Below, piece after piece: positions 33,369 to 54,075 of a DNA stretch of 64,000 nucleotides. The notes under the pieces were generated by a model. That model was not told where the DNA came from and did no database searches. It worked only from the letters and a program-made list of their open reading frames with translations. How positions within the stretch are numbered: position 1 is the first letter of the stretch; each line of letters starts with the position of its first letter. The position numbers and the translations under genes were made by a program. Source of the DNA: Bolinopsis microptera (taxonomy: Eukaryota > Ctenophora > Tentaculata > Lobata > Bolinopsidae); NCBI RefSeq assembly GCF_026151205.1, contig NC_087076.1, positions 4,237,902 to 4,301,901 on the forward strand. Reading direction: 5' to 3'.

Positions 33369-34172
33369 TCACTGAGCACTGTAGGGAGGCGGCGCTTCAT
33401 CCTCAATATATATTGGGGGAGATTGGTTTGAGGGTGCCGTTTGGCCGGGGAAAGATGCCAGATGACCTGAAGGTAGAGGATTCCCACTATCGGATACTCT
33501 ACTTCGGAACATCCCGTCCTCCTGATCTGCCTGACCTTTACAACTATCACAACATCGTCTAAAACACGTTCTAACCACGTGACAGCACCTCCTCGTAACC
33601 ACGTCACAGCATGTGTCACAAAGCCCACGAAATTTCTTCGAAGATCCCATTAGAAAGATTATCCCGATAATGAAGAATAACAGGGGGAGAAACAGTGCCA
33701 AACTTGCTCTCTTCGAGGAATAGTCATTGGCCGTGAGGAAGTTGTCCCCCAGCGCCCAACAGTGAAATTGTATTCTTGAGGTCCAGTAAAACTCTCTGAC
33801 ATGTTCTGCCACTGCTATCTGATTTAAAGCAGGTTCAGACTTACAGTTTGGAATGACAAAACAGTCTTTCCTTAGCGCATCATAGTCAGTGTGAAATGTA
33901 CCACTGCGTGTGGGGTCTAAGTGTTTACCAAAAGGAGAGTAGGTTCCTGACAGTGTTACACAGGGGAACTGTGAAGTGCAGGTCACGCCACAAGAGCACT
34001 CCTTCCACGGTACCTCATTCAAATTAACTCTCTTTGTTGTTAGCTGGCATCTGCCTATATTGAATCGTGATCCGTGGTAGTTGGGAATCACTACTTGTAC
34101 TAGTAAAGTGATCAGAATGATCAAGGGAATCAGAGTGAATAGAACCGCGCACGTCACTTTTATCTCACCCAT
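33369..34172 (-). CDS. KCNMB-like BK-channel beta subunit family protein
   Basis: A single-exon frame of 267 residues, starting at the ATG at 34172; the frame extends a few codons further but without an ATG. It has two membrane segments, about residues 6-28 and 166-190, separated by a ~135-residue cysteine-containing loop, with both ends cytosolic. That is the topology of KCNMB subunits, which modulate large-conductance calcium-activated potassium channels. Loop landmarks fit the family: a CxCxxxC cluster followed by SQFPCV, a Cx5C pair (CFVIPNC), and YWTSRIQFHC before TM2. After TM2 comes a dense cysteine stretch (CDTCC, RRCCHV, FRRCCDSC), a plausible palmitoylation zone, and the tail ends in a PPPY WW-binding motif. 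The family call rests on topology and spaced motifs. A tipE-like or other two-TM family remains possible. Confidence 0.7.
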   Translation of the reverse strand: MGEIKVTCAVLFTLIPLIILITLLVQVVIPNYHGSRFNIGRCQLTTKRVNLNEVPWKECSCGVTCTSQFPCVTLSGTYSPFGKHLDPTRSGTFHTDYDALRKDCFVIPNCKSEPALNQIAVAEHVREFYWTSRIQFHCWALGDNFLTANDYSSKRASLALFLPLLFFIIGIIFLMGSSKKFRGLCDTCCDVVTRRCCHVVRTCFRRCCDSCKGQADQEDGMFRSRVSDSGNPLPSGHLASFPGQTAPSNQSPPIYIEDEAPPPYSAQ

Positions 34173-35451
34173 GATTTCCAGCACTCAAACAATGTCAGCA
34201 GAAAGTGGACAAAAATCAAAAAACTTATCGATCGTTAGCATGACTTATGAGCCAAACAAAAACTAAGAGCATAAGCAGAAAAGCAAGGACACACAGTCAC
34301 GTTCCAGCGTAAATAAGTGATTGTGACAATGTTGTGTACGTATGCTCATCATGAACATGCAAAGCACATGATGTTAAAACTTCAAGTGCTTGCTTAAACT
34401 TACTCTTACTAAAATAACTGATATAATCCTGGCCAGTTGACCGGCAAAGCGAGGAATAATCTGTACCGAATTAGAGTACTGATGCAAATTAAATTCGCTC
34501 ATGTATAATGTATATGGATTTATAAAATGTGCGATGAAGTTGACGGCAAATTTATCCCAAGTTATAATTATCATTTGTTCTGGGAGGAGTTCTATTTTAT
34601 TTGTTTCAGGTCACTTTTTTTTTCTTCGAGCTCTCAAGTCTCAACTTCTATATCATATTCTGGTATTCCATGAGCAAGAGTTATTCAGCAATAACAGTTT
34701 GCTTCATCAGAAAATTTTTCAACTCTGAACATAACAAAATTTTTAGTTTTGTTCGGAGGACAGTCCCAAGTACGACCCTGAATTCTGTCAAGTTTGGAAG
34801 GACACCACCCTTATGAAGCAATGTAGGGATCAACAGGGAGAAATCGTCAAATGTGGATTTATTTTCTCTGAAACAGGTATTTGAGTTTTCATATTTTTGT
34901 TTTTTCCTGATGCAATTTTATTGCTCACAGATTTTATGTAGGTCTTGTCACAAATTTTACACTTTTGAAGCATTTTTCAAAAATAATTGCACTCCATCAA
35001 ATACCAATATTCATTATTCAAAAGTAACCATTATCCGTTAAATCCACAAAAAAATAAGATTTAATAAAATAATTATTCAAATCGAATCGTCAAAATATTT
35101 GTTTATATCTCAATTATTTATGTCTGAAAAAATACTAATCAATTTAAATCAACGCCTAGTTAAAACTTCAAAAGTCACAGTTTTCAGCTCGGGGAGCCCG
35201 AGACGATTCTCTTGTTGTCTTCAGATCATTGCCTACTGCATATGAAGTTAAGCCAATCCCTCCTTCTGCGGAAGTTAATGTGATAATTTACTGATATAAA
35301 TTGTAATATAATCCACTGTGATAAGTTGAGTAGAAGTGGGACAATGTACATGGACATTGGACAATGTACATGGATTGACTGCTGACTTAAGGAGTACCCA
35401 AAGGAGCCACCTTTATTAATAATAATATAAGAATAATAATATTAACAATAA
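34173..35451. other. Intergenic, no gene recognised
   Basis: AT-rich unique DNA between two minus-strand genes. It should contain the promoter of the KCNMB-like gene and the 3' flank of the receptor gene. I see no repeat structure and no convincing reading frame; the short frames present lack any recognisable motif. Confidence 0.6.
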
Positions 35452-38237: not shown

Positions 38238-38741
38238 ATGCAGGCCAAGTTTAAGTTAGCAAGACTAGTAATATATGCAAGAGATGAGGCCGAGCTAGTT
38301 GGATCTTTAAAAGCAATTATCCTTAGATTGGACATGCGTTTAACAACGAACAGGATCCTTCAGTCTTCAAATCAGTCACTTAACAGCAATGACCAGTTTG
38401 AAACCCCGAACCTGCCCCAAATACCACCAAAACTCTACCAAAAATCATACTATTCATCACAGTCATCAGATGACAGTAGTGTTAATGATATTGTGAAGAG
38501 TATGGAGGCGGACCTTGACCAGAGATTGACCATTCAGAAAACTGCAAGAGGCGACACAAAGAAGAACTTGTCAAAGGAAGAGACTGAGGGCCTAAAATGG
38601 CTTGAGTGCATGAACAATGAGGGAAAACTATCCGTTGTTCAAGCTGATAAAGGAGGTGCAGTGATCATTATCAACCCAGAGACACTAAGGAAGAAGACAC
38701 TTGAGAAGCTCCAAAACCCGAATATCTATAGTCTATACTGA
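38238..38741 (+). CDS. Penelope-like ORF, N-terminal part (before frameshift)
   Basis: About 167 residues from the ATG at 38238; the open frame itself begins just after a stop at 38210, with no earlier ATG. It holds the N-terminal region and the first RT block (VVQADKGGAVIIINPE), the basic and acidic KGG motif typical of the start of Penelope reverse transcriptases. The frame closes at 38741, a few codons after NPNIYSLY, where the next frame already carries the continuation. A one-base change near 38736 explains the break. This could be a true mutation, an error, or less likely a programmed shift. Confidence 0.85.
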   Translation: MQAKFKLARLVIYARDEAELVGSLKAIILRLDMRLTTNRILQSSNQSLNSNDQFETPNLPQIPPKLYQKSYYSSQSSDDSSVNDIVKSMEADLDQRLTIQKTARGDTKKNLSKEETEGLKWLECMNNEGKLSVVQADKGGAVIIINPETLRKKTLEKLQNPNIYSLY

Positions 38742-40686
38742 ACTGAAGGAAGATCTCACCCAAACATTACACCATGAGTTATTCCTCAAATGGGTTGAAG
38801 GTAAAGAGAAAGGTTTTATCCATCCGATGACTGCAAAAAGTGTCATGGGTGTTTCTGATAATGATAGCACAAAAGAGGGGAAAGATACGACCAATGCAAA
38901 GAGCACTTCTTCATATTTCAAGCCAGGAAAAGCCTACTTTTACCCGAGTTTGAAGATCCACAAATTGAAGAGAAAAGACCTTGTGCCAGGCATAGAGCCC
39001 CCTGTGAGACTAGTCACTGCACTACAGGAAGGAATAGCAAAAAGGAGTGATGTCTTCTTGGCCAGTGAGTACTTCAAAAATCTTGAAAAGGACTATTGCG
39101 AAGACTTACTGACTGACTCAACGGAGGCACTGAGATGGCTTGAAGTATGCAATGAAGTTGAAACAGACAAACGAGCCCTCCGAGCTTTCACTTTCGACTT
39201 CAAAGCTCTCTACGACTCATTAAACCCTGAACTTGTCAAGGAAGCCGTTCATCATGCAATGAATACCACCAGACCAGACTGGACACCAGCACTCTGTGAT
39301 TGGCTGGTCGACCTCGTTGATATCAGTCTAAGATCCTCTATTGGATGCTTCGAAGACAAGTGGTACGTCCAAAAGAACGGAGTGCCTACAGGTGGAAGTC
39401 TGTGTGTGCAGTTGGCCAACATAACTGTATTTTATGTAATGAACAAATGCGTTTACAGTAACACTGACATGATGAAGAGAGTCAGGACTGTAAGACGGTA
39501 CATTGACGATGGTGCAGGTTTCTTCTACAGCACTGAAAGGAAATTTGACCAGTGGATTTCCGATGTAAACAAATCCTTGAAAGAATATGGGCTACTCATT
39601 GACGAATCCCAATGGAAGGAAGTTGGCACGCCTGTGGCTTTTCTAGATATCGAGTTTTGTTTCGACCCTGAGGGAAACTTACAAACTGACCTCCATATCA
39701 AGGAAACAGATTCAAGGAGCTATCTACATTTTAGCAGTGCACATCCAAACCACATTTATAGTGGAATAGTTTACAGCCAGTGTATCAGACTCAAGAGAAT
39801 AATCAACTCACAAGAACGACTGGAAACCAGATTGAGTGAATTAAGCCAAGCATTCAAGGCAGCTGCTTATCCCTCAAAAATGGTGAACAACATTAGCAAA
39901 AAAGTTCTCAACTCAGAAAGAAACCTTGAACGAAGACCTCCCAAGGACAACACACTGAAGCCAGAGATCCTACCAATAAGGGTTGTCTCAACCTACGGAA
40001 GTGACTCTGACATTGTCACCACAGTGAAAAAGTATGAGGAGAACTTAAAGAAGACCAGAAGTTTTTGTAACCTGAGTGACTCAAAACAACAGAGTAACAC
40101 CCTTGAAGAAAAGAAGAATGGCAAAAAGTTCTTCCAATTTGTCAAGAAAACAGGAAGCAACCTCAAAAGCCGGTTGGTTAAGGTGAAAGAAATAGCTCTG
40201 GGGAATAAGCACGGTCAAACAAGGCCGTGTAGAAAGAAGAACTGTGCAACGTGTGAGTCTATTGATAGTGCTACACAAATCAGCATCAATGGGAAACGGG
40301 TAAAAACAGCACCAGGTACATGCATCACTTACAACATCATATATTTGATCAGATGTAAACTGTGTGAGAAACCATACGTAGGCAAATCCACCAGAATGCT
40401 ACGGGTAAGGTTTGGCGAACACAGAAGAGCATTCTACAAGATCATCAGTGGGCAAAAGGTTGACACGGATGATGACTCAAACTGCGTAGGACTCCACCTC
40501 CATATAGAGCATGGACTGACTCAGAAGGAAAATTTTAACAATAGTGTTTCAGTGTGTATCCTAGAAAATTCAAGTCCTAGTAGTTTAGATGTTAAGGAGC
40601 ACCGATATATACATGCCTTAAATTCCCTCCGCCCCTCAGGAATGAATAGTACAAACCCTTTTAAGATTCCTTTATTGCATAATTGA
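38701..40686 (+). CDS. Penelope-like reverse transcriptase / GIY-YIG endonuclease
   Basis: About 650 residues that continue the preceding frame. There is no ATG at the frame start, as expected for the 3' side of a frameshift. RT motifs appear in order: FDFKALYDSL (motif A, near residue 165), NGVPTGGSLCVQLANI (motif B), YIDD catalytic motif C near residue 267, and PVAFLDIEF (motif D/E). A linker with a CRKKNCATC cysteine pair precedes the GIY-YIG nuclease: NIIYLIRCKLCEKPYVGKST (about residue 544 on), then LRVRFGEHR with the catalytic arginine, and HLHIEHG. The linked cysteines resemble the zinc-knuckle that Penelope endonucleases carry. The protein copies element RNA into DNA at a nicked target. 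All core catalytic residues look intact. Confidence 0.93.
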   Translation: MRSSKTRISIVYTELKEDLTQTLHHELFLKWVEGKEKGFIHPMTAKSVMGVSDNDSTKEGKDTTNAKSTSSYFKPGKAYFYPSLKIHKLKRKDLVPGIEPPVRLVTALQEGIAKRSDVFLASEYFKNLEKDYCEDLLTDSTEALRWLEVCNEVETDKRALRAFTFDFKALYDSLNPELVKEAVHHAMNTTRPDWTPALCDWLVDLVDISLRSSIGCFEDKWYVQKNGVPTGGSLCVQLANITVFYVMNKCVYSNTDMMKRVRTVRRYIDDGAGFFYSTERKFDQWISDVNKSLKEYGLLIDESQWKEVGTPVAFLDIEFCFDPEGNLQTDLHIKETDSRSYLHFSSAHPNHIYSGIVYSQCIRLKRIINSQERLETRLSELSQAFKAAAYPSKMVNNISKKVLNSERNLERRPPKDNTLKPEILPIRVVSTYGSDSDIVTTVKKYEENLKKTRSFCNLSDSKQQSNTLEEKKNGKKFFQFVKKTGSNLKSRLVKVKEIALGNKHGQTRPCRKKNCATCESIDSATQISINGKRVKTAPGTCITYNIIYLIRCKLCEKPYVGKSTRMLRVRFGEHRRAFYKIISGQKVDTDDDSNCVGLHLHIEHGLTQKENFNNSVSVCILENSSPSSLDVKEHRYIHALNSLRPSGMNSTNPFKIPLLHN

Positions 40687-42055: not shown

Positions 42056-42130
42056 CGACAATTGACCCCCCGACAATTAACCCCCCGACAATTGACCCCC
42101 GACAATTGACCCCCCGACAATTGACCCCCG
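42056..42130. repeat. GACAATTGACCCCCC short tandem repeat, 5 copies
   Basis: Five units of 15-16 bp. The same unit recurs in opposite orientation at 42571-42956. Confidence 0.9.
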
Positions 42131-42147
42131 AAAATATAATTGAATAC

Positions 42148-42288
42148 CCCTGACCCTGACCCTGACCCTGACCCTGACCCTGACCCTGACCCTGACCCTG
42201 ACCCTGACCCTGACCCTGACCCAGGACCCCGACCCTGACCCTGACCCTGACCCTGACCCAGGACCCTGACCCAGGAACAGCTGTCCCT
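42148..42288. repeat. CCCTGA (TCAGGG) variant telomere-like array
   Basis: About 20 hexamers of CCCTGA, interrupted by a few CCCAGGA and CCCCGA variants. TCAGGG is a single-transition variant of the metazoan telomere repeat and is common in proximal telomere sequence. Confidence 0.92.
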
Positions 42289-42545
42289 GACCCTAACCCC
42301 AACCCTAACCCTAACCCTAACCCTAACCCTAACCCTAACCCTAACCCTAACCCTAACCCTAACCCTAACCCTAACCCTAACCCTAACCCTAACCCTAACC
42401 CTAACCCTAACCCTAACCCTAACCCTAACCCTAACCCTAACCCTAACCCTAACCCTAACCCTAACCCTAACCCTAACCCTAACCCTAACCCTAACCCTAA
42501 CCCTAACCCTAACCCTAACCCTAACCCTAACCCTAACCCTAACCC
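42289..42545. repeat. Interstitial telomere repeat (CCCTAA)n, ~42 copies
   Basis: About 255 bp of nearly perfect CCCTAA. It lies more than 20 kb from either window edge with unique genes on both sides, so it is interstitial. The variant CCCTGA block is on its left. At a left chromosome end the pure repeat would be outermost, so the order is opposite to that of a native end in this orientation. Confidence 0.95.
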
Positions 42546-42570
42546 GATTAATTTACCCCAGTTTAATTAC

Positions 42571-42956
42571 AATTGTCGGGGGTCAATTGTCGGGGGGTCA
42601 ATTGTCGTACTAAGCCCTAGATTTCGCGACAATTGACCCCAGTGTAATTACATAGAGGGTCAATTGTCGGGGGGTCAATTGTTGGGGGTTAATTGTCGGG
42701 GGGTCAATTGTCGGGGGGTCAATTGTCGTACTAAACCCTAGGTTTCGCGACAATTGACCCCAGTGTAATTACATAGGGGGTCAATTGTCGGGGGGTTAAT
42801 TGTCAGGGGGTCAATTGTCGGGGGGTCAATTGTCGTACTAAACCCTAGATTTCGTGACAATTGACCCCAGTGTAATTACATAGGGGGTCAATTGTCGGGG
42901 GGTCAATTGTCGGGGGGTCAATTGTCGGGGGGTCAATTTTCGGGGGGTCAATTGTC
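42571..42956. repeat. GGGGGGTCAATTGTC repeats with ~105-121-bp higher-order unit
   Basis: Around 20 copies of a 15-16-bp G-run unit. Three times the series is punctuated by GTCGTACTAAACCCTAG plus TTTCGCGACAATTGACC and an AGTGTAATTACATAG segment (starts near 42604, 42725 and 42830). Regular G5-G6 runs could form G-quadruplexes on the plus strand. Confidence 0.9.
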
Positions 42957-42965
42957 GCGGTACCC

Positions 42966-47083: not shown

Positions 47084-47258
47084 GTATGAGTGACACCTGG
47101 ACAGGTCTGATACTAATGATACTGAGTCTGCTGATGCTGTGTCTCTGTCTAGCTGGCCTTGTTAAGACACTGCAGTCCATCCTGCTGGGTCCAGTAGCTG
47201 GGGCACTCAAGAAACACATTAACAGTGATCTTCCTTACCCTTTTAAGTGGCTTACTGG
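47084..47258 (+). CDS. SLC34: SLC34 exon (membrane segment before second QSSS)
   Basis: Acceptor CTCTCTGCAG, donor GTAAGT. The exon starts with two bases completing a codon and ends with GG of a split codon. It encodes a leucine-rich membrane helix and [19 protein letters not shown], ending PYPFKWLTG, matching the family just before the second inverted repeat. The in-frame ATG at its start is internal, not an initiator. Confidence 0.9.
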
Positions 47259-50200
47259 GTAAGTGACTGGATTATTGGGTTACAACTTGTTCAGTTGAAC
47301 AAACGAACACTGAGCAATAACTTATTCCTTTACTTCAAGTACCTGAAATAACTAGTTCCTTTACTTCAAGTACCTGAAATAACTAGTTCCTTTACTTCAA
47401 GTACCTGAAATAACTGGTTCCTTTACTTCAAGTACATGAAATAAAGTAGTTCCTCTACTTCAGGTACTTGTTCATGGGGATAGGAGTGGTGTTCACCTTC
47501 CTGCTTCAGAGCAGCAGCGTGTTCACCTCCACTCTAACCCCCCTTGTAGGACTAGGTGTGATCAGTATTGACAGAATGTACCCGCTAACTCTAGGGAGCA
47601 ACATTGGCACCACCACTACAGCCATGTTAGCGGCGCTGGCTTCAGATAGTGATGCTCGTACTACTACCATTCAGATCGCGGTTTGTTCGTCTTACATTAT
47701 CAATTAAGGCATATAAATTGACTCAAATGTATTTCAGAGGCATTCTCTAGCCTGTTCTAAATGCCGCTAATAGTCAGTTACAAGTTATAAATTTAAGTTA
47801 AATAAACGGAACATCAAAGATCGATTTATCTCAGCTAATAGGTCACAATTTACTTGTAGGTTAATAACCTACCAAGACGAGCGCCGAGTTGGAACAAATA
47901 TTTACCCGTTAACAATTTACGTCTGTGTGATATTGTCTGTAGATCAATAATATACGACCCTATTGATACAAGATATATAGATTGAAAGGGTTATTGAAAT
48001 ATGCCTCTATATGATCAATATATATTCACTTCAATATTAATAACCTACACATCAGATATGTAGTTTTCCTGACAGGAGTCTTGCTCAGGTGTGTCACCTT
48101 CTGTTTAACATCTTCGGAATCGTCCTCTTCTACCCAGTACCTTTCATGAGACGTATACCTATAGCTGGTGCTAAGATCCTCGGTAACACTACTGCTAAAT
48201 ACAGGTCCGTGTTATCCACTGTTTCCTTATGTCAAGACTCAAGAGTCGCATTTAAAATTAATTTTCTGATTTTTTTAGTAGTCACTGATTCCATAGTTCG
48301 ACGCATAAACATTTAAGTTTTAACACTTGTAGCCTTTTGTGAAATGTCCCATATGTAACCCTCACTCCCATCAGATGGTTTGCTATCGTGTACCTCCTAA
48401 TTGTGTTATGTAACCCTCACTCCCATCAGATGATTTGCTATCGTGTACCTCCTAATTGTGTTATGTAACCCTCACTCCCATCAGATGATTTGCTATCGTG
48501 TACCTCCTAATTGTGTTATGTAACCCTCACTCCCATCAGATGATTTGCTATCGTGTACCTCCTAATTGTGTTATGTAACCCTCACTCCCATCAGATGGTT
48601 TGATATCGTGTACCTCCTAATTGTGTTATGTAACCCTCACTCCCATCAGATGGTTTGCTATCGTGTACCTCCTAATTGTGTTATGTAACCCTCACTCCCA
48701 TCAGATGGTTTGCTATCGTGTACCTCCTAATTGTGTTATGTAACCCTCACTCCCATCAGATGGTTTGATATCGTGTACCTCCTAATTGTGTTATGTAACC
48801 CTCACTCCCATCAGATGGTTTACTATCGTGTACCTCCTAATTGTGTTATGTAACCCTCACTCCCATCAGATGGTTTACTATCGTGTACCTCTTAATTGTG
48901 TTATGTAACCCTCACTCCCATCAGATGGTTTGCTATCGTGTACCTCCTAATTGTGTTATGTAACCCTCACTCCCATCAGATGGTTTGCTATCGTGTACCT
49001 CCTAATTGTGTTATGTAACCCTCACTCCCATCAGATGGTTTGCTATCGTGTACCTCCTAATTGTGTTATGTAACCCTCACTCCCATCAGATGGTTTGCTA
49101 TCGTGTACCTCCTAATTGTGTTATTTAACCCTCACTCCCATCAGATGGTTTGATATCGTGTACCTCCTAATTGTGTTATGTAACCCTCACTCCCATCAGA
49201 TGGTTTACTATCGTGTACCTCCTAATTGTGTTATGTAACCCTCACTCCCATCAGATGGTTTGCTATCGTGTACCTCCTAATTGTGTTATGTAACCCTCAC
49301 TCCCATCAGATGGTTTGCTATCGTGTACCTCCTAATTGTGTTATGTAACCCTCACTCCCATCAGATGGTTTGCTATCGTGTACCTCCTAATTGTGTTATG
49401 TAACCCTCACTCCCATCAGATGGTTTGCTATCGTGTACCTCCTAATTGTGTTATGTAACCCTCACTCCCATCAGATGGTTTGCTATCGTGTACCTCCTAA
49501 TTGTGTTATGTAACCCTCACTCCCATCAGATGGTTTGCTATCGTGTACCTCCTAATTGTGTTATGTAACCCTCACTCCCATCAGATGGTTTGCTATCGTG
49601 TACCTCCTAATTGTGTTATGTAACCCTCACTCCCATCAGATGGTTTGCTATCGTGTACCTCCTAATAGTGTTATGTAACCCTCACTCCCATCAGATGGTT
49701 TGCTATCGTGTACCTCCTAATAGTGTTATGTAACCCTCACTCCCATCAGATGGTTTGATATCGTGTACCTCCTAATTGTGTTATGTAACCCTCACTCCCA
49801 TCAGATGGTTTGCTATCGTGTACCTCCTAATAGTGTTATGTAACCCTCACTCCCATCAGATGGTTTGATATCGTGTACCTCCTAATTGTGTTATGTAACC
49901 CTCACTCCCATCAGATGGTTTGCTATCGTGTACCTCCTAATAGTGTTATGTAACCCTCACTCCCATCAGATGGTTTGCTATCGTGTACCTCCTAATAGTG
50001 TTATGTAACCCTCACTCCCATCAGATGGTTTGCTATCGTGTACGTCCTAATTGTGTTATGTAACCCTCACTCCCATCAGATGGTTTGCTATCGTGTACCT
50101 CCTAATTGTGTTATTTAACCCTCACTCCCATCAGATGGTTTGCTATCGTGTACCTCCTAATTGTGTTATGTAACCCTCACTCCCATCAGATGGTTTGATA

Positions 50201-53200
50201 TCGTGTACCTCCTAATTGTGTTATGTAACCCTCACTCCCATCAGATGGTTTGCTATCGTGTACCTCCTAATAGTGTTATGTAACCCTCACTCCCATCAGA
50301 TGGTTTGCTATCGTGTACATCCTAATTGTGTTATTTAACCCTCACTCCCATCAGATGGTTTGATATCGTGTACCTCCTAATTGTGTTATGTAACCCTCAC
50401 TCCCATCAGATGGTTTGCTATCGTGGACCTCCTAATTGTGTTATGTAACCCTCACTCCCATCAGATGGTTTTCTATCGTGTACCTCCTAATTGTGTTATG
50501 TAACCCTCACTCCCATCAGATGGTTTGCTATCGTGTACCTCCTAATTGTGTTATGTAACCCTCACTCCCATCAGATGGTTTGCTATCGTGTACCTCCTAA
50601 TTGTGTTATGTAACCCTCACTCCCATCAGATGGTTTGCTATCGTGTACCTCCTAATTGTGCTATTTAACCCTCACTCCCATCAGATGGTTTGCTATCGTG
50701 TACCTCCTAATTGTGCTATTTAACCCTCACTCCCATCAGATGGTTTGATATCGTGTACCTCCTAATTGTGTTATGTAACCCTCACTCCCATCAGATGGTT
50801 TGCTATCGTGTACCTCCTAATTGTGTTATGTAACCCTCACTCCCATCAGATGGTTTGCTATCGTGTACCTCCTAATTGTGTTATGTAACCCTCACTCCCA
50901 TCAGATGGTTTGCTATCGTGTACCTCCTAATTGTGTTATGTAACCCTCACTCCCATCAGATGGTTTGCTATCGTGTACCTCCTAATTGTGTTATGTAACC
51001 CTCACTCCCATCAGATGGTTTGCTATCGTGTACCTCCTAATTGTGTTATGTAACCCTCACTCCCATCAGATGGTTTGCTATCGTGTACCTCCTAATTGTG
51101 TTATGTAACCCTCACTCCCATCAGATGGTTTGCTATCGTGTACCTCCTAATTGTGTTATGTAACCCTCACTCCCATCAGATGGTTTGCTATCGTGTACCT
51201 CCTAATTGTGTTATGTAACCCTCACTCCCATCAGATGGTTTGCTATAGTGTACCTCCTAATTGTGTTATGTAACCCTCACTCCCATCAGATGGTTTGCTA
51301 TCGTGTACCTCCTAATTGTGTTATGTAACCCTCACTCCCATCAGATGGTTTGCTATCGTGTACCTCCTAATTGTGTTATGTAACCCTCACTCCCATCAGA
51401 TGGTTTGCTATCGTGTACCTCCTAATTGTGTTATGTAACCCTCACTCCCATCAGATGGTTTGCTATAGTGTACCTCCTAATTGTGTTATGTAACCCTCAC
51501 TCCCATCAGATGGTTTGCTATCGTGTACCTCCTAATTGTGTTATGTAACCCTCACTCCCATCAGATGGTTTGCTATCGTGTACCTCCTAATTGTGTTATG
51601 TAACCCTCACTCCCATCAGATGGTTTGCTATCGTGTACCTCCTAATTGTGCTATTTAACCCTCACTCCCATCAGATGGTTTGCTATCGTGTACCTCCTAA
51701 TTGTGCTATGTAACCCTCACTCCCATCAGATGGTTTGATATCGTGTACCTCCTAATTGTGTTATGTAACCCTCACTCCCATCAGATGGTTTGCTATCGTG
51801 TACCTCCTAATTGTGTTATGTAACCCTCACTCCCATCAGATGGTTTGCTATCGTGTACCTCCTAATTGTGTTATGTAACCCTCACTCCCATCAGATGGTT
51901 TGCTATCGTGTACCTCCTAATTGTGTTATGTAACCCTCACTCCCATCAGATGGTTTGCTATCGTGTACCTCCTAATTGTGTTATGTAACCCTCACTCCCA
52001 TCAGATGGTTTGCTATCGTGTACCTCCTAATTGTGTTATGTAACCCTCACTCCCATCAGATGGTTTGCTATCGTGTACCTCCTAATTGTGTTATGTAACC
52101 CTCACTCCCATCAGATGGTTTGCTATCGTGTACCTCCTAATTGTGTTATGTAACCCTCACTCCCATCAGATGGTTTGCTATCGTGTACCTCCTAATTGTG
52201 TTATGTAACCCTCACTCCCATCAGATGGTTTGCTATCGTGTACCTCCTAATTGTGTTATGTAACCCTCACTCCCATCAGATGGTTTGCTATCGTGTACCT
52301 CCTAATTGTGTTATGTAACCCTCACTCCCATCAGATGGTTTGCTATCGTGTACCTCCTAATTGTGTTATGTAACCCTCACTCCCATCAGATGGTTTGCTA
52401 TCGTGTACCTCCTAATTGTGTTATGTAACCCTCACTCCCATCAGATGGTTTGCTATCGTGTACCTCCTAATTGTGTTATGTAACCCTCACTCCCATCAGA
52501 TGGTTTGCTATCGTGTACCTCCTAATTGTGTTATGTAACCCTCACTCCCATCAGATGGTTTGCTATCGTGTACCTCCTAATTGTGTTATGTAACCCTCAC
52601 TCCCATCAGATGGTTTGCTATCGTGTACCTCCTAATTGTGTTATGTAACCCTCACTCCCATCAGATGGTTTGCTATCGTGTACCTCCTAATTGTGTTATG
52701 TAACCCTCACTCCCATCAGATGGTTTGCTATCGTGTACCTCCTAATTGTGTTATGTAACCCTCACTCCCATCAGATGGTTTGCTATAGTGTACCTCCTAA
52801 TTGTGTTATGTAACCCTCACTCCCATCAGATGGTTTGCTATCGTGTACCTCCTAATTGTGTTATGTAACCCTCACTCCCATCAGATGGTTTGCTATCGTG
52901 TACCTCCTAATTGTGTTATGTAACCCTCACTCCCATCAGATGGTTTGCTATCGTGTACCTCCTAATTGTGTTATGTAACCCTCACTCCCATCAGATGGTT
53001 TGCTATCGTGTACCTCCTAATAGTGTTATGTAACCCTCACTCCCATCAGATGGTTTGCTATCGTGTACCTCCTAATAGTGTTATGTAACCCTCACTCCCA
53101 TCAGATGGTTTGATATCGTGTACCTCCTAATTGTGTTATGTAACCCTCACTCCCATCAGATGGTTTGCTATCGTGTACCTCCTAATAGTGTTATGTAACC

Positions 53201-54075
53201 CTCACTCCCATCAGATGGTTTGCTATCGTGTACCTCCTAATAGTGTTATGTAACCCTCACTCCCATCAGATGGTTTGATATCGTGTACCTCCTAATTGTG
53301 TTATGTAACCCTCACTCCCATCAGATGGTTTGCTATCGTGTACCTCCTTATAGTGTTATGTAACCCTCACTCCCATCAGATGGTTTGCTATCGTGTACCT
53401 CCTAATAGTGTTATGTAACCCTCACTCCCATCAGATGGTTTGCTATCGTGTACCTCCTAATTGTGTTATGTAACCCTCACTCCCATCAGATGGTTTGCTA
53501 TCGTGTACCTCCTAATTGTGTTATTTAACCGTCACTCCCATCAGATGGTTTGCTATCGTGTACCTCCTAATTGTGTTCCTTCTCATCCCCACCCTACTAC
53601 TAGGCTTCTCCCTAATTAGCAACATTGTCTTCTACACTTTTATTGGAATAGTGCTTCTACTCATACTATCAGTTATATCTATAACTTTGATGCAGAAATA
53701 CGCTAAAGACAGGTGAACTTTGAGAGCATATTATTTGATTTATGGGTACTGTATAGTGTATACTGTATAGTGTATACACTATACAGATAATGATATGAAG
53801 CTTAAACTTATTAATCCTGGTTATAAATCAAATAAAACAATTAATAAATATTTAATGATTCTATTTGTTTTTTTCTATCAGAATTCATTCACTTTAAAGT
53901 TCACATTATTTTCAGATTACCCTTGAAACTACAAACTTGGGATTTCCTTCCCGAACCTCTCCACTCACTGAAACCCTACGACCGCCTCATAACCTCGTTA
54001 TTCTCAAACTGCACGTGCTGTAAATGCGGCACGCAGCCCCTTGATGACCTGACTGTGTCCTATGGGTACAAGTGA
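47084..54075 (+). CDS. SLC34: SLC34 sodium/phosphate cotransporter, 3' half (5 exons)
   Basis: Joined exons 47084-47258, 47464-47680, 48089-48204, 53545-53712 and 53916-54075. Phases fit at every junction and all introns are GT-AG. The product is the C-terminal half of a type II Na+-dependent phosphate cotransporter, a plasma-membrane carrier that drives phosphate uptake with sodium. Landmarks in order: membrane segment with [40 protein letters not shown] (the second QSSS transport motif) and [33 protein letters not shown] and [25 protein letters not shown]; and [20 protein letters not shown] followed by a cysteine-rich end (CTCCKC). The N-terminal half is not seen. The third intron contains 95 copies of the exon 4 acceptor, which makes correct splicing remarkable. 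The frame itself is intact. Confidence 0.92.
47325..47463 (+). repeat. 31-bp minisatellite derived from a 3' splice junction
   Basis: Four units start at 47325, 47356, 47387 and 47418, of the type TTCCTTTACTTCAAGTACCTG plus AAATAACTAG. The fifth, at 47450, is the real exon junction TTCCTCTACTTCAG then GTACTTG. The polypyrimidine tract and the first bases of the exon are thus the parent of the repeat. Confidence 0.88.
47464..47680 (+). CDS. SLC34: SLC34 exon with second QSSS motif
   Basis: 217 nt, beginning with one base that completes the split glycine codon and ending in phase 0 at GCG before GTTTGT. It encodes [19 protein letters not shown] and then [16 protein letters not shown], the Na+/phosphate-coordinating repeat of SLC34. 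Confidence 0.93.
48089..48204 (+). CDS. SLC34: SLC34 exon (VCHLLFN..TAKYR)
   Basis: 116 nt starting in phase 0 after TTGCTCAG and ending with AG of a split arginine codon before GTCCGT. The adjacent upstream AG (GACAG at 48075) would break the frame, so the 48088 acceptor is chosen. It encodes a membrane helix and a cytoplasmic loop ending in AKYR. Confidence 0.9.
48353..53577 (+). repeat. 55-bp minisatellite of a 3' splice junction, 95 copies
   Basis: The first acceptor (exon base at 48375) and the last (53545) are exactly 94 x 55 bp apart, so 95 units have no net length change. Each unit is 22 bp of intron end (ATGTAACCCTCACTCCCATC+AG) plus the first 33 bp of SLC34 exon 4 (ATGGTTTGCTATCGTGTACC and onward). 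Each carries a possible branch-site-like CTAAT, a pyrimidine stretch and AG. Recurrent variants (TTTGATATC, TTTACTATC, TAATAGTG, TTATTTAACC) recur in similar orders around 49665-49930 and 53010-53280, which points to segmental duplication within the array. Only the final unit continues into the rest of the exon. Confidence 0.97.
53545..53712 (+). CDS. SLC34: SLC34 exon after the acceptor array
   Basis: Starts at the last CAG of the 55-bp array and ends before GTGAAC. It encodes [16 protein letters not shown], a long hydrophobic stretch and [11 protein letters not shown], corresponding to the late membrane segment of SLC34 proteins. The first 33 nt are the exonic part of the satellite unit. 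Any earlier acceptor shifts frame by one base per unit and meets the TAA in ATGTAACC within two units. Confidence 0.9.
53763..53786. repeat. Perfect 24-bp palindrome in the last SLC34 intron
   Basis: CTGTATAGTGTA followed by its reverse complement, preceded by a second GTATAGTGTA copy. No function assigned. Confidence 0.7.
53916..54075 (+). CDS. SLC34: SLC34 terminal coding exon
   Basis: Acceptor TTATTTTCAG; the stop TGA is at 54073-54075. It encodes [20 protein letters not shown], then [18 protein letters not shown] and a short tail. The QTWDFLP and LHSLKP words are typical of the cytoplasmic C-terminus of SLC34. Confidence 0.92.

Follow-up and report, generated by a model that had tools for sequence, protein, structure and literature searches.

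The window analysed here is a 64,000-nucleotide stretch of the genome of the ctenophore Bolinopsis microptera (C5:4237902-4301901). It contains exons 7 to 12 of a gene for a type II sodium/phosphate cotransporter (SLC34), recognised by its Na_Pi_cotrans domain and by full-length homology to SLC34 proteins. The 3' end of intron 10 of this gene is filled by 95 tandem copies of a 55-bp unit, each of which is a copy of the gene's own intron-exon junction. It belongs to the 'mirages', a kind of minisatellite that is known but little studied, and is a very large one.

Structure of the array

Tandem Repeats Finder (TRF) assigns the array a period of 55, 95.0 copies, 98% matches, 0% indels (insertions and deletions) and a score of 10102. 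Cut unit by unit, it gives 95 units of exactly 55 bp without gaps, 53 of which equal the consensus, and 17 unit types in all. Each unit joins the end of intron 10 to the start of exon 11 (Table 1). The division into 22 + 33 nucleotides proposed in a first-pass annotation of the window and the 23 + 32 used here differ only in phase, one T being common to both sides of the duplication joint.

The sequence ATCAGATG[G/A]TTT, and with it the ATCAG acceptor, is present in 95/95 units. The first acceptor AG lies at 48373-48374 and the last at 53543-53544, a distance of 5170 = 94 x 55 bp, which confirms the earlier claims that all copies are of full length and that every unit carries an acceptor. The intron/exon junction of the gene, 53544/53545, lies in the last unit. 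One stop-bearing sequence had also been attributed to every unit. It is not universal, as ATGTAACC occurs in 88/95 units; the stop itself is, since the seven units with ATTTAACC (15, 33, 37, 43, 44, 61 and 95) keep the TAA.

The mean pairwise divergence of the units is 1.8%. Unit 1 equals the consensus, units 2-4 carry a common edge variant and unit 95 has two changes, one of them private. Higher-order organisation was not significant, since the longest informative repeated block (7 units) was matched by 43 of 500 shuffles. The genome search for the units covered 264.65 Mb in 232 contigs, whereas a published table entry credits the species with a 265-Mb genome of 13 chromosomes and with 346 scaffolds (PMC11797021, available in part). 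With only the best candidates scored, 46 matches to the 55-bp unit were obtained, all inside the array.

Protein products

The NCBI protein of B. microptera (P0130, 625 amino acids, no isoform label) maps letter for letter onto 12 exons separated by 11 GT-AG introns, with the last acceptor in use. This exact map, the Na_Pi_cotrans domain and the homology bear out the earlier reading of an SLC34 gene that holds an array of its own intron-exon junction. The protein agrees with the use of the last acceptor only, and regular messenger RNA (mRNA) may still be made.

The reading frames agree with two further claims of the first-pass annotation. Exon 10 joined to unit 95 encodes the 625 amino acids, and no other acceptor leads to a full exon; joined to any of the other 94 units (94/94), it reaches a premature stop at 517-559 amino acids. 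The skipping of exon 11 keeps the frame and would give 569 amino acids. An impaired allele, one of the explanations first offered, is unlikely on the sequence, as the 12 exons are intact and a full 625-residue NCBI protein exists. When a hypothetical mis-spliced C-terminus was used as query, the array-derived tail was found in 0/17 of the proteins matched (50-63% of the 52-residue query covered), in a database clustered at 90%, where a rare isoform could hide.

The host gene

Table 1. Position of the exons, intron and tandem arrays of the SLC34 genes (window positions unless a locus is named)
Feature	Position	Strand	Description
Exon 7	34747..34876	+	130 nucleotides, poorly conserved loop; exact mapping of P0130
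Exon 8	47084..47258	+	175 nucleotides; exact mapping of P0130
31-bp x 4.9 array	47316..47467	+	End of C5 intron 8, reaches 4 nucleotides into exon 9
Exon 9	47464..47680	+	217 nucleotides; P0130 mapping, Pfam Na_Pi_cotrans 2.2e-11
Exon 10	48089..48204	+	116 nucleotides, upstream of the array, donor gtccgt; P0130 mapping
Intron 10	48205..53544	+	GT..AG, 5340 nucleotides with the last acceptor; array fills the 3' end; P0130 mapping
95 x 55-bp array	48352..53577	+	Unit: 23 nucleotides of intron 10 end TATGTAACCCTCACTCCCATCAG + first 32 nucleotides of exon 11 ATGGTTTGCTATCGTGTACCTCCTAATTGTGT
Exon 11	53545..53712	+	168 nucleotides, the one place where the repeated exon start is complete; then donor gtgaac
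Exon 12	53916..54072	+	157 nucleotides coding; stop codon 54073-54075
37 x 68-bp array	L037:4810-7326 (C6:15157810-15160326)		C6 SLC34 intron 7

Exons 1-6 are located 23-26 kb upstream of the window start. Intron 6 spans 58,089 nucleotides, intron 7 12,207 and intron 10 5,340, and the other eight introns 132-718. Exon 7 lies 58.1 kb downstream of exon 6 and 12.2 kb upstream of exon 8, in a 70-kb gap in which 120 proteins gave a single tblastn match (E 0.007). The inclusion of this poorly conserved exon in the P0130 model suggests that transcript evidence stands behind the model. The residues around the exon 10/exon 11 junction (YR/WFA, the slash marking the splice junction here and below) are unbroken in 9/9 homologues of one alignment, chosen from 120 listed, and in 9/9 relatives of a second (P0121-P0129, again from 120 listed), one of which is the C6 gene itself, described below. 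The longest contigs of P0122 (582 amino acids) and P0129 (602 amino acids) measure only 2,186 and 2,114 bases, which implies a spliced complementary DNA source.

The long introns of the gene hold other elements. An open reading frame (ORF) for CaKB, a potassium-channel beta subunit, lies on the minus strand at 33372-34184, inside intron 6. For the ctenophore Hormiphora, 2357 genes nested within introns are reported, with a spliced leader on 56% of the full-length reads (PMC8527503, available in part). Intron 7 contains a 665-residue open frame at 38689-40683, with a reverse-transcriptase match (28.5 bits, 1.5e-6) just below the Pfam cut-off, and an interstitial (CCCTAA)n array at 42148-42545, placed between CAATTGTCGGGGGGT repeats (42056-42957 overall). 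At the gathering threshold, Rfam gave no match in the window or in loci L017 and L018. The last two loci are joined by a 405-bp x 20.4 tandem array with 99% matches (L017:7066 to L018:5334), also without an Rfam match.

A second SLC34 gene and other arrays

Two SLC34 genes were found in the genome, on contigs C5 and C6. Contig C20 has another copy, which comprises the first half alone, and two matches on C3 are very weak. The C6 gene has a large array of its own, in intron 7, with a unit of approximately 36 nucleotides of intron end and 31 of exon start. CACCAG/GTATCTGTTT is present in 37/37 units and only unit 37 restores the full frame. The 68-bp unit has 16 matches in the genome, all in the C6 array, and its mean pairwise divergence is 3.0%, a value raised a little by the two units that have one inserted base. 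The C6 intron equivalent to C5 intron 10 is ordinary (148 nucleotides). The intron of C5 that matches the one with the C6 array holds the 31-bp array of Table 1, in which the four upstream units read CAAG/TACCTG or CAAG/TACATG against the real CAG/GTACTTG, a weak splice-site similarity (16/24).

A 682-nucleotide C6 intron (L037:7439-8120) splits what is one exon in C5 (143 + 74 = 217 nucleotides), and a 50-bp tandem copy of the donor region (L037:7408-7490) adjoins it. This extra intron with a mirage beside it is a possible case of intron gain or loss.

The distribution of changes among the units does not support a claim of constraint on the acceptor copies. In C5, the intron part shows 2 distinct changes and the exon part 12. 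With unit 95 left out, the longest invariant run (positions 5-26) has p = 0.030; with unit 95 included, the longest run then obtained has p = 0.146. In C6 the pattern is the opposite, with 8 variable intron positions (3 of them in unit 1 only) and an exon part that varies only by the 1-base insertion in 2/37 units. The test was post hoc and the two patterns disagree. The masking of acceptors by RNA structure was likewise rejected (monomer z = 0.90, dimer z = 0.59).

In the 264 kb of DNA read, 49 tandem arrays have a period of at least 15 and a score of at least 60. Four others were read, chosen through the ORFs beside them, a selection that cannot prove enrichment. A 35-bp x 5.1 array (L026:8243-8422) starts at the donor (AAAG/GTAAC) of a Pfam-supported carnitine acyltransferase exon; its motif is absent from a 4.5-kb C20 piece, itself mostly low-complexity. 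A 31-bp x 8.1 array on the minus strand (L019:2245-2496) starts at a GTAAAT donor-like site beside an ORF with no Pfam match. The third (33 bp x 1.9) stops before it reaches an acceptor; no splice junction could be recognised in the fourth (30 bp x 17.5). Pfam was run on 140/151 ORFs flanking tandem arrays, those crossing locus ends (7) or lying in telomere-like repeats (4) being outside the run, and returned 18 families, mostly with one member each; carnitine acyltransferase had four.

An assembly artefact, in which the array is real and its copy number wrong or its place mistaken, is very improbable. Tandem arrays are hard to assemble and the 4.5-kb C20 piece consists mostly of low-complexity runs. 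On the other hand, the array occupies only 5.2 kb of a 23.6-Mb contig, the 264 kb read contain no run of N, the 17 unit types are interspersed, the end of the array lies exactly across the junction of intron 10 and exon 11, and a second gene shows the same layout. Contig C20, with 94.2% identity to C5 over 2,043 alignment columns (approximately 6% difference, gaps counted), is a probable alternative haplotype (haplotig) that ends about 1 kb past its copy of the first half of the gene, before the array. The C20 region at 73000-77500 (L038) is full of homopolymer-like low-complexity runs and is probably poorly assembled. Relative to the difference of about 6% between C5 and C20, the divergence of the units is low in both arrays, which suggests that these were homogenised recently.

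Acceptor choice

The strength of the acceptors was compared with a weight matrix built from 20 other acceptors, taken from both SLC34 genes, which themselves score from -4.3 to 12.6 (leave-one-out). The C5 units score 8.38 (88 units), 9.98 (6 units) and 8.80 (unit 95), so the last copy has no meaningful advantage in acceptor sequence. Among the three units inspected, a CTAAT branch-like motif lies 30 nucleotides upstream of units 2 and 95 and not of unit 1; in both cases it comes from the exon part of the preceding unit. Since the C5 acceptors are near-equal in sequence, the choice of the last copy must come from context. Exon definition, the pairing of the last acceptor with the exon 11 donor, would be the most likely context, because the distance to that donor corresponds to an ordinary exon length for just the last few acceptors (168, 223 and 278 nucleotides); from acceptor 92 the exon would measure 333. 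Among the options of the first-pass annotation, a splicing machinery that passes over 94 acceptors is the one best supported by the sequence. Some mis-splicing is likely all the same, given that 94 near-equal acceptors compete with the last.

The same near-equality leaves room for the main alternative, unlikely though not negligible, in which the length of the array acts as a splicing rheostat that sets the share of productive mRNA and tunes the dose of phosphate transporter. Upstream acceptors would capture exon 10 in some transcripts and lead to early stops, or the array would promote the skipping of exon 11. The scores of the 94 upstream acceptors against that of the last, the branch-like motif at unit 2 as well as at unit 95, the frame kept on skipping and the large arrays in both SLC34 genes found are all in keeping with such a role. 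A precedent is the human ABCA7 gene, in which the length of an intron-18 variable-number tandem repeat (VNTR) is correlated both with the skipping of exon 19 and with a lower expression, according to the available text of PMC5954066. Against it, the 17 proteins matched include no aberrant isoform, within the clustering limit given above, and the units carry no consistent signal of selection. The amphioxus mirages, though of far fewer copies, are thought not to disturb splicing (PMC3087553, available in part).

Controlled use of the units, as recursive-splicing ratchets or as microexons with the GTAACC as donor, had also been proposed and has very little probability in C5. GTAACC is present in 88/95 units; nevertheless, microexons would require introns of 20 nucleotides, and seven units, the last among them, have lost the donor. 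A ratchet site needs AG/GT, whereas the C5 units read CAG/ATGG or CAG/ATGA, and the array peptide is in no matched protein. The C6 units read CAG/GTATCT at the acceptor, with GTATGT 26 nucleotides further on in 34/37, and recursive splicing is conceivable at that array.

Origin and maintenance of the array

The favoured explanation, with a probability of about 0.72, is that the array is a mirage of intron 10 of the C5 SLC34 gene that was duplicated, amplified, homogenised and tolerated, the mRNA being made from the last acceptor through its context. A short stretch that straddled the 3' splice site of intron 10 would first have been duplicated in tandem. Subsequently, slippage or unequal exchange would have amplified and homogenised the unit to 95 copies. 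As a duplication that spans the acceptor leaves one intact set of intron, acceptor and exon at its downstream edge, it need not destroy the gene and can persist. A working mRNA would be made from the last acceptor by the spliceosome, and mis-spliced products, which carry early stops, would decay. The array is most likely a homogenised minisatellite that splicing tolerates and that would be close to neutral.

Several observations weigh against this explanation. The short introns near the array (205, 408 and 203 nucleotides) suggest that intron definition could apply, in which case the first acceptor, with a 170-nucleotide intron, would be favoured and much aberrant splicing is predicted. The best matrix score in C6, 6.56, belongs to 18 of the 37 units, the first and the last included, while the others score 4.05 (16 units) or 3.75 (3 units), and sequence may add a little to the choice there. 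The placement may not be neutral, since arrays in both SLC34 genes would be odd if mirages are rare. At a cut of at least 20/24, duplications lie at 2/44 splice sites of the two SLC34 genes, both of them the large arrays themselves, against 5/600 control positions, from which the large arrays were left out; this enrichment is not convincing. The 31-bp array (16/24) and the C6 donor copy (19/24) fall below the cut.

A broader proposal is that splice-boundary satellites recur in this ctenophore genome and that in the two SLC34 genes, where they are independent and lie in different introns (95 + 37 acceptors), array length, heritable and quick to mutate, acts as a dial that sets productive splicing and hence phosphate uptake. 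As a whole it is unlikely. The second gene makes the finding more than a curiosity, and its paradox is a real one that can be put to the test. An intron with ninety-five near-equal 3' splice sites offers a natural experiment on acceptor choice by the spliceosome: as sequence strength does not explain the choice, the effects of position and of exon definition would be directly measurable by varying the number of copies. The route from mirage to new intron proposed in PMC3087553 (available in part) also becomes testable, because an intron absent from C5 is present in C6, next to a duplicated donor.

Comparison with known systems

The first-pass annotation knew of no described gene with this layout, but published cases exist. 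Mirages, repeats across intron-exon boundaries, were named in the Adh3 gene of amphioxus and also occur in two of its globin genes, BflGb6 and BflGb9. The units are of 10-72 bp in Adh3, and of 150-160 bp in BflGb6, where two haplotypes carry 6 and 3 of them; reverse-transcription PCR was taken to suggest regular splicing (PMC3087553, available in part). The 60- and 108-bp repeats of lancelet PGBD5, which lie on or overlap splice sites, were likened to mirages in the available text of PMC3902484; their copies (2-7 and 3-6) are imperfect and assembly-dependent.

The C5 unit spans the intron-exon boundary of its host, and splice signals are found in 95/95 C5 and 37/37 C6 units. As in amphioxus, where BflGb6 repeats a 3' intron end and a 5' exon part in tandem, many units carry splice signals; unlike those chordate mirages, the present ones belong to a ctenophore and reach 95 copies of 55 bp in one gene and 37 of 68 bp in the other. 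The overlap with splice sites is shared with the PGBD5 repeats, whereas the C5 units are near-perfect and their copies more numerous by an order of magnitude.

The ABCA7 VNTR is likewise a kilobase-scale repeat adjoining an exon. A splice donor corresponds to the two bases with which its unit begins, and one retained unit shifts the frame. It differs from the C5 array in its 25-bp unit, in the use of a donor instead of an acceptor and in that no exon start is described in the available text; in ABCA7 an effect of length on exon skipping has been measured.

Recursive (ratchet) splice sites and tandem NAGNAG acceptors are further cases in which several acceptors compete in one intron. The C5 units differ from them in lacking AG/GT and in that their acceptors belong to whole junction copies 55 bp apart.

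Searches of open-licence literature returned no ctenophore case and no array of comparable size. The present arrays extend the mirages from amphioxus to ctenophores, and are new in their scale (95 copies against at most 7 in the available text of PMC3087553 and PMC3902484), in their phylum and in their recurrence.

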